Shown here piece by piece: positions 17,546 to 20,937 of a stretch of 64,000 nucleotides of DNA (positions are counted from its first letter, which is position 1; every line of letters starts with the position of its first letter). Source of the stretch: Blepharisma japonicum. Taxonomy: Eukaryota > Ciliophora > Heterotrichea > Heterotrichida > Blepharismidae. A program made the position numbers and the translations under genes. The DNA is taken from contig CATKHK010000020.1 in NCBI GenBank assembly GCA_949751835.1, positions 248,001 to 312,000 on the forward strand, read 5' to 3'. The notes under the pieces were generated by a model. It searched no databases. It was not told where the DNA came from and saw only the letters and a program-made list of their open reading frames with translations.

Positions 17546-17757
17546 CCATTTATTAAAAATATCTCTTGAATTAATTATATATAAACTATTAGTTTAATGA
17601 GGTTATATATATACAAATATATAATTAATTTACTCCTTTTTACTTTACTTATAAATTTCATCAATATCTTTATTATCCTTAATGAAAATTTCTAAAATGT
17701 CTGAATTTTTCAACCTTCAAGCAATTTCATATATTTAAATAAATTATAATACCGCCA

Positions 17758-18126
17758 ATGTCAAAATTCGTCAAAGAAACTGAAGAAGCTCCGAAGACAA
17801 AGATCATCGAACGCTATCCTCCTGGAGTCCGAGCTCTTAAAGAAATACGAAAATACCAACATTCAACTGATCTCCTTATAAGTAAACCTGGATTTGCAAG
17901 ACTTGTTAAAAGTATCTCTTATAATGTAACCAAAGATGACTCAATTAAATGGAGTAAACTTGGAATAGAAGCTTTGCAACACACCGCTGAAGATTTCTTA
18001 GTTGGCCTTTTTGAAGATTCAAATCTCTGCGCTCTACACGCAAAAAGAGTTACTTTATTGGTCAAAGATATGCAGCTTGCGAGAAGAATCCGTGGAAGAT
18101 TTGAAAAAATTGTTAATAGAACTTAA
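17758..18126 (+). CDS. Divergent histone H3 variant, CenH3/CENP-A candidate
   Basis: 122 residues with a clear H3 histone fold: helix [21 protein letters not shown], helix 2 ending [19 protein letters not shown], and the final [13 protein letters not shown]. It differs from canonical H3 where CenH3 proteins do. The N-tail is only about 20 residues and lacks the ARTKQTARKS sequence. Loop 1 between helices 1 and 2 is two residues longer: 30 residues lie between the LV of helix 1 and LVGLFED, against 28 in H3 and 30 in human CENP-A. A Trp (SIKW) replaces the Phe of H3 RFQ, as in CENP-A FNW. It would mark centromeres, in a ciliate probably those of the germline micronucleus. Another specialised H3 variant remains possible. 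Convergent with the next gene, 24 bp between stops. Confidence 0.8.
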
Positions 18127-19320: not shown

Positions 19321-20280
19321 TTAAGCATTTGCTAATCTACTTAATAATGAATTTGTTTTATTCGGAACAGGAGGTGAAACAATAGGTGTAAAGCTTGAAT
19401 TTTCAAAGCTAAAACAAAATGAATCAATTTGTCTCAAGAGGTCAGAAGACTCAAAAATCGCAGTTGGACACTTTTCTTTAAATTTTTCAAGTTTCATAGC
19501 TTTTTTTTTAATTCCAGCGCTTTTTTGCTTAAAGCTAGCAAGCTTTTTGATCGGAGATTTGCATTTTCGATTTTTTTCTTCTTTAATTTCTTCGTTTTTG
19601 ACTAGACTTGGTGTGTTGGCAGCTTCTCTGATTGAACTATAAGGTGGAGAAAGTGATAAAATTTCGTCAACGTAATAATTATAATCTATTATCGACTTGC
19701 TTTTGGGAGCCAGGATTGATGAACCTAGCTCTCGCAGTTTTGCATTAATTTCCTTTGGTTCGACATTCAGCTGATTCTTATATTTAGATTTGAAATTTAA
19801 AAAATTTTTGGTGAAATTTTCGATTTTCTGGTTTAAAAATGCTTCATAAGGTTTTATATCGTCGTTTAGGAAGGATTTAGCTGCGAATGCTGAATAGCAT
19901 ATAAAATCATTTAAAGATAGTTTGGTATCAGTTCAGCCAATTTTATCAAGATAAAGCGTCCACAAAGCAGTTTCTATTTCATTGAAAGCAAAATCTTGCA
20001 GAGTGCCCATCAAATATCTAAGAAGTGGTCCGGCTCTGTAGTCTCCAAGAAAATCTGGGTTTTGTAAAAATCTTCTCAATATTAATTCACATGTTTGATT
20101 ATTCCCAAAATGTTTAAAATCTTGATGTATATTATAATAGCGTTGCAGTAAAACACTTAGCTCTTCATTTTCTTTAAGTTCTGAACGTGTCTCATCTTCT
20201 ATTTTAATTTTCTTTACAGGGCTTTTTAAAAGGTAGCCAGCGCTATTTAAAGAATCTCTTTTGATTTCACCAGAAAACAT
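19321..20280 (-). CDS. Unknown family B protein, 319 aa (relative of 57415-58167)
   Basis: Start ATG 20278-20280, one TGA (19933-19935) read as Trp, stop TAA at 19321. The central part (about residues 60-155) is helical and aligns by eye with the product of the gene at 57415: FNEIETALWTLYLDK here, LNEIEILYWSYLLKK there, then FLNDDIKPYEAFL here and FNEDIEPFEKIM there, at about the same spacing. The C-terminal half is basic and low in complexity with Lys-rich stretches, possibly a nuclear or DNA/RNA-binding tail. The helical pattern loosely resembles a cyclin fold, but I cannot support that. No known motif. Confidence 0.75.
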
Positions 20281-20937
20281 TTATTATAAAAACCTGATTA
20301 ATACCGTTGAAATAGCAGGACAATTAAGAAGAAAATACATAAAATTAATGCCAGTGAATTCATCACTTACTATTAATAAATTTACTTTATTTTTTAACTT
20401 GAATTTTTAAAACAATAAACAAAAAGCTCGAAAGATAATTTTCTGAATCTAATAAGCCAATTTTCTATATTATTAATAAAAAACCAATTCCAAATAATAT
20501 ATGTAGACTGGATTTTAAGCTTACTTTTAAGATAAGTATGAATTTTATTGAAAAAATAGACATTATATTTTAATATAGCGTATCTAAATTAGCCTGAACA
20601 ATATAGTTTACCCTTTTTTTGCATTCAACTTAATTTATACATAGTTTATTTTCATCATTACAGCACAGAGATGAGACACAACTCCTTCTTATTCTCCTAA
20701 ATTGGTAATATTATTGTCCATCTTACTATCTGGTCATGCTTTCCAAAGGTCTCAACCATCGAACTTCAGCAGCCTTAACCGTCACGTTAATCTTTATATC
20801 ATTGGGATCTCGCTTCATTGAGAGGTCATATGCTCTCATCCATCAAAATTCTGGAATAAACTAAATGCACAATGATAATTAAACATCACGAATCAAGACT
20901 CTCTATAGTCAAATTAAATAATATTATAATAAACAAG
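20281..20937. other. Intergenic spacer with a less AT-rich island
   Basis: Lies between the start of the family B gene and the stop of the pseudokinase gene. Most is AT-rich, but about 20660-20850 is clearly richer in G and C. On the minus strand it holds a 37-codon open frame (20726-20839, ending TAG) with protein-like composition but no family. It could be a non-coding RNA, a gene remnant or nothing. Confidence 0.4.

Follow-up and report, generated by a model that had tools for sequence, protein, structure and literature searches.

In Paramecium, two paralogous centromeric H3 histones (CenH3s) are described, CenH3a and CenH3b, with a longer loop 1, a divergent tail and an extended C-terminus; CenH3a is reported to be confined to the micronuclei of vegetative cells, to be required for their division and to disappear from macronuclei as these develop (PMC4770206). 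For the kinetochore of Tetrahymena, a 2022 review gives CENP-A and Ndc80 as the only components identified (PMC9252888). Published screens for CenH3s use four features: an insertion in loop 1, a divergent tail, the lack of the α1 glutamine and a divergent fold (PMC7052976). Here we describe a gene of this kind in the heterotrich Blepharisma japonicum. It lies in a 64,000-nucleotide stretch, which we call the window, of assembly GCA_949751835.1 (contig CATKHK010000020.1, here C20, positions 248001-312000; other contigs are abbreviated likewise). The gene, at 17758-18126 of the window on the forward strand, is an intact open reading frame (ORF) of 122 codons, from ATG to TAA, encoding an H3-type histone. 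Its product is very probably a CenH3/CENP-A, which would replace H3 at micronuclear centromeres, be read by CENP-C and be linked to Ndc80. A ciliate CenH3 is expected, and the gene is a fresh example of a known family.

The unbroken frame and the match to Pfam Histone (103.9 bits, E 9e-30, cut-off 26.4) argue that the ORF is not due to chance; matches to CENP-S and CENP-T_C both fall under their cut-offs. No TGA, TAA or TAG precedes the stop. A single-sequence structure prediction of the protein gave a predicted local distance difference test score of 46.9. A paralogue is found outside the window, on contig C54. The parts of the gene are listed below in window coordinates, with the limits of αN and of the helices placed by eye on the alignment.

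17749..17757, forward: ATACCGCCA, adjoining the ATG; the C54 paralogue has GATACCGCCATA ahead of its ATG
17758..18126, forward: coding sequence of the CenH3 candidate, 122 amino acids, TAA stop at 18124-18126
17758..17814, forward: N-terminal tail, residues 1-19, without ARTKQTAR or K4/K9/K27/K36-type motifs; 10 of 19 residues as in the paralogue
17815..17883, forward: αN region, residues 20-42, from the alignment
17884..17928, forward: α1, residues 43-57, with GFARLVK; the Gln of H3 FQRLVRE is absent; 4 of 15 residues identical to the paralogue
17929..17955, forward: loop 1, residues 58-66, exceeding that of H3 by two residues
17950..17952, forward: Trp65 (TGG), aligned with the loop-1 Trp of CenH3s; TGA in the paralogue
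17956..18012, forward: α2, residues 67-85, from the alignment
18013..18096, forward: loop 2 and α3, residues 86-113; 27 of 28 residues identical to the paralogue
18097..18123, forward: C-terminal extension RFEKIVNRT, a candidate point of contact with CENP-C; its RFEKIVN is conserved between the copies
C54:306101-306466, reverse: CenH3 paralogue, 124 residues, about 70% identical to the window protein

In the alignment the window protein shows all four features used in the published screens. Between LV and LVGLFED stands a spacer of 30 residues. All nine canonical H3s of this genome have 28 there, as do human and yeast H3; the CenH3s compared have 30 (human CENP-A, Arabidopsis CENH3), 31 (Cse4) or 34 (Cnp1). 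A preliminary description of this DNA had given loop 1 exactly the length of CENP-A: the count of 30 versus 28 stands, but the landmarks differ, being LA and LVHLFED in CENP-A. The tryptophan that it had placed in the loop is confirmed as Trp65, which is matched by Trp in CENP-A, Cse4, Cnp1 and Arabidopsis CENH3 and by Phe in the compared H3s. Nineteen residues without ARTKQTAR precede Tyr20, the equivalent of H3 Tyr41, in keeping with the short non-canonical tail first described for this 122-residue H3. The α1 glutamine is gone in both copies, which read FARLVK (window) and FKKLLL (paralogue) against FQRLVRE. As for the fold, the window protein is 55-56% identical to two of the organism's own H3s (L005 and L004), whose own identity to human H3.3 is 87% and 85%. 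These nine canonical genes share the H3 histone fold with it but differ in their ARTKQTAR tails, FQRLVRE, 28-residue spacer and Phe for Trp; the first three, marks of replication-type H3 and H3.3, are absent from the window protein.

Among the best 60 of 176 PDB matches, the top six are centromeric (113.7-110 bits). Five of them are named Cse4 or Cnp1; the sixth, 7on1_e, is named by a strain identifier alone, and its aligned stretch is that of Cse4. H3.3 follows at 104.5 bits. No relative of the gene was confirmed in viral and prokaryote contigs, where 62 and 225 pattern matches, respectively, were examined.

With Cse4 and Cnp1, the window protein shares the Trp-bearing longer loop 1 and the missing α1 glutamine, and with Cnp1 (120 amino acids) also a comparably short tail, query residue 17 aligning with chain residue 19. 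Its spacer is one residue shorter than that of Cse4 and four shorter than that of Cnp1, and while Cnp1 ends at RRIRGA, the window protein adds RFEKIVNRT. Human CENP-A agrees in its spacer, the aligned Trp and an extension after RRIRG; it differs in core identity (52%), in a tail of about 40 residues versus 19, and in having LVHLFEDAYLL where the window protein has LVGLFED and, as in H3, SNLC. The likeness to Paramecium CenH3a/b, also a ciliate pair, and to Tetrahymena Cna1 is one of description; the two Blepharisma copies share about 70% of their residues and are saturated at silent sites.

We built a tree of 17 rows: the two candidates, nine own H3s, human and yeast H3, and four known CenH3s. 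The reference set is small, its CenH3s coming from outside the ciliates (without Tetrahymena Cna1 or Paramecium CenH3). A branch with values 90/93 (not starred) puts both candidates with the four known CenH3s, apart from the own, human and yeast H3s. Forcing the candidates together with the own H3s is 12.8 log-likelihood units worse and is rejected by the approximately unbiased (AU) test (p 0.0064); grouping with replication-type H3, named at the outset as a result that would speak against a CenH3, is thus rejected relative to the nine own H3s of this small set.

Candidate partners of a centromeric histone are encoded in the same genome. The starting point was a weak match to Pfam CENP-C_C (E 0.224, under cut-off), in a search where matches under cut-off also came from 8 of 14 control genomes. 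It pointed to a C27 protein of 332 residues, through which two further homologues were found, one on C31 (open frame of 476 codons) and one on C48 (480 codons). In addition, three diverged Ndc80_HEC genes score over the Pfam cut-off, two of them on the CenH3-bearing contigs.

C27:330266-331261, reverse: CENP-C homologue (L038), CENP-C motif and C-terminal cupin-type region
C31:28045-28611, reverse: CENP-C homologue (L039), CENP-C motif and C-terminal cupin-type region
C48:67564-68130, forward: CENP-C homologue (L040), CENP-C motif and C-terminal cupin-type region
C54:249078, reverse: Ndc80 gene (L027)
C20:353359, forward: Ndc80 gene (L028)
C30:289924, reverse: Ndc80 gene (L029)

The three CENP-C homologues comprise a pair of close copies and one protein 26% identical to the pair, and all share RYPxRNR...HWxNExIxYD. 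Against the PDB (E up to 10), the C48 motif alone finds six matches, five of them CENP-C or Mif2 (best E 0.0011); a profile of the three proteins, motif plus C-terminal domain, finds six matches to CENP-C or Mif2, the best with E 5.1e-8 over profile positions 2-172. One of the six in both searches, 7on1_C, is named by a strain identifier alone. Counting against CENP-C identity, two of the homologues taken singly stay under the Pfam cut-off, the C48 protein has no CENP-C_C match at all and a Ribosomal_L14e match under cut-off, and the four PDB matches of the C27 protein alone include no CENP-C. A CENP-C-like motif also occurs in KNL2-type proteins; the cupin-type match points to CENP-C instead.

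Several observations weigh against the CenH3 assignment. Human CENP-A is not among the best 60 of 176 PDB matches. Dictyostelium CenH3 is described as having no longer loop 1 (PMC9252888), so that this loop is not a universal CenH3 mark. Our tree is small, only one of its nine inner branches is starred, that joining the two candidates (96/94), and the branches of Arabidopsis CENH3 and CENP-A are long. Raw identity does not discriminate, at 50-58% to four CenH3s versus 52-57% to four H3s, and a broader tree, as published, has no single CenH3 clade (PMC2939574). Neither Scm3/HJURP over cut-off (best E 0.118, for a protein that by eye resembles a large membrane protein) nor Mis13, for which the controls likewise gave no match, was found, which does not show their absence. 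Since the tree is weakly resolved, identities are non-discriminating and the broader tree holds no single CenH3 clade, we let the features outweigh the tree. Altogether, loop 1 with its Trp, the loss of the α1 glutamine, the tail, the placement off the own H3s and the CENP-C and Ndc80 genes encoded alongside support the CenH3 identity first proposed for this gene.

The genome holds 18 H3-like places, a lower bound for large families: two CenH3-like, nine canonical H3 genes, four degenerate and three folds linked to a von Willebrand type A (VWA) domain. As just two of the 18 are CenH3-like, no other CenH3 candidate was found. The four degenerate or truncated copies (L012, L013, L014 and L017) cluster at C53:47840-77158, with stops, frame breaks and lost tails. 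In the large VWA/H3 proteins, an unusual fusion, the H3-like fold stands behind the VWA domain (L015, C48:212715-212981, reverse; L016, C94:114244-114504, reverse; L018, C7:344758-344994, forward); Pfam gives E 1e-23 to 3e-14 for Histone and 9e-24 to 2e-20 for VWA_3, and two of the three have a VIT match under cut-off.

Silent sites are saturated between the two CenH3 copies (pS 0.773), at a pN of 0.205; the pair thus separated long ago and has, on average, been under constraint. Over 120 codons, the copies differ at 18 first-to-second-class sites in the second position, 31 in the first and 67 in the third, the pattern of purifying selection. Identity is 29/57 over residues 1-57 and 56/63 over residues 58-120: α1 is the most diverged part, while α3 and the C-terminal RFEKIVN are nearly unchanged. 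Gene conversion as the cause of the conserved second half is not supported, since saturation of silent sites is similar in both halves (pS 0.79 and 0.76). The C54 copy evolves faster, with 7-13 unique changes versus 1-4 in the window copy across six outgroups (p < 0.05 with four of the six, uncorrected).

Segmental duplication as the origin of the pair is not supported either, an old event aside, as little of the surroundings is shared. Between the 30 kb around the C54 copy and the 64-kb window, the CenH3 pair is accompanied by two other homologous ORF pairs, the weaker at 29% identity (E 1e-6). The family of the other pair, which includes window 19325-20281 (reverse), has 56 matching places in the genome, the window member counted, with a run at C10:284177-313094. 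The distance from CenH3 to Ndc80 is about 88 kb on C20 and about 57 kb on C54; the 10-kb surroundings of these two Ndc80 genes have only Ndc80 in common, and the pieces of the Ndc80/CenH3 contigs compared show no convincing collinearity.

Upstream of both CenH3 starts stands the 8-mer ATACCGCC; a single copy is present on the two strands of the window, and another single copy in the 30-kb surroundings of the C54 paralogue. The 130-base stretches ahead of the nine canonical H3 genes lack it, as do the up to 220 bases preceding the start, or a point close to it, of the six CENP-C and Ndc80 genes. Over these bases, the last result speaks against an upstream element common to CenH3, CENP-C and Ndc80 genes; the 8-mer may be a shared promoter or a leader relic.

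What else could the window gene be? It could encode a divergent non-centromeric H3 variant, serving for example the development of new macronuclei, whose longer loop 1 was gained independently. Ciliates do have several divergent H3 variants, some of them stage-specific, as described in two studies (PMC4770206, PMC2939574); a Blepharisma histone, not matched to the window gene, is reported as upregulated specifically in development (PMC9942806), and the window protein is about equally identical to H3 and to CenH3. We nevertheless consider this very unlikely, because loop length, loop Trp, the missing α1 glutamine and the placement on the CenH3 side jointly oppose it, and because, if neither copy were a CenH3, no candidate would be left in a genome with CENP-C and Ndc80 genes. 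That the gene is a decaying pseudogene or an assembly artefact is scarcely credible: degenerate H3 pieces do exist in this genome, on C53, but here the frame is intact and the codon-position differences fit purifying selection.

Two further scenarios keep the CenH3 identity and concern the existence of two copies, for which Paramecium (PMC4770206) and cowpea (PMC7738545) are precedents. In both, one of the two paralogues is reported as dispensable, and the C54 copy might accordingly be the chief one at the centromere, the window copy being redundant or specialised; as the window copy is the slower-evolving of the two, this seems rather doubtful. Less probable still, two CenH3s, two CENP-C types and diverged Ndc80s might form two inner kinetochores, as parallel kits used for instance in vegetative micronuclear mitosis on the one hand and in meiosis or nuclei turning into macronuclei on the other.

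The preliminary description had also held that the DNA looks macronuclear, and this agrees with the assembly as a whole (45.2 Mb in 224 contigs). A 24-mer of three CCCTAACA repeats has 168 matches in it (77 forward and 91 reverse, overlapping), its reversed control none. Among the matches listed, those on C11, C36, C47, C69, C78, C80 and C89 lie within the first 421 bases and those on C7 within the last 70; C4, C5, C6, C17 and C38 are also matched, the end position being checkable on the former eight contigs alone. C20 itself has no CCCTAACA repeat in its first and last 1 kb. Window GC content is 0.29-0.40 in 2-kb steps. The assembly looks like a Blepharisma-type macronuclear genome: that of B. 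stoltei is described with the same telomere repeat, UGA as Trp and AT-richness (66% AT), and with a size of 41 Mb in place of 45.2 Mb (PMC9942806).

The loop-1 Trp of the paralogue is encoded by TGA, which the standard code would read as a stop, and TAA ends all 11 intact histone genes (the nine canonical H3s and both CenH3 candidates). The alignment of this TGA with Trp65, the TAA histone stops and the B. stoltei paper (PMC9942806) all argue for TGA as Trp. The summed length of frames of at least 300 codons in the window does not choose between codes: translation table 6 gives 13310, only slightly more than the 12549 of table 4.

We now propose how the protein may act. It would take the place of H3 in micronuclear centromere nucleosomes and pair with H4 through α2 and α3. 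The longer, Trp-bearing loop 1 together with α2, the CENP-A targeting region, would mark it out for loading. CENP-A and CENP-C are in contact at centromeres, which makes the C-terminal extension a candidate contact: the hydrophobic RFEKIVN and the H2A-H2B acidic patch would be read by the CENP-C motif of at least one of the homologues, which would in turn provide the connection to Ndc80 and the spindle microtubules. The faster-evolving second CenH3 of C54 would be kept alongside, with some division of labour between the copies. By analogy with Paramecium and Tetrahymena as described (PMC4770206, PMC9252888), we infer that the protein marks micronuclear centromeres and is absent from the macronucleus. 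Its gene is expected in macronuclear DNA, expression taking place from the macronucleus; for Paramecium, too, the CenH3 gene is reported there (PMC4770206).

Judged by title and the opening of the abstract, none of the open-access Blepharisma papers listed is a report on its centromeres; a search of the same literature for Stentor with CENP-A turned up a single paper, on Euglenozoa, and neither B. stoltei genome paper has 'centromer' in its main text. Heterotrichs are a distant branch from that of Paramecium and Tetrahymena. A heterotrich CenH3 is therefore a handle on micronuclear centromeres in a second main branch of ciliates, and also on how centromeres vanish from macronuclear DNA. As a CenH3 the gene is ordinary; the interest lies in the duplicated inner kinetochore and in a ciliate CENP-C, which may be the more useful by-product. 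The CENP-C genes matter more than the CenH3, this linker being missing from the list given for Tetrahymena (PMC9252888), and the motif-plus-cupin sequences can seed searches for CENP-C in other ciliates.
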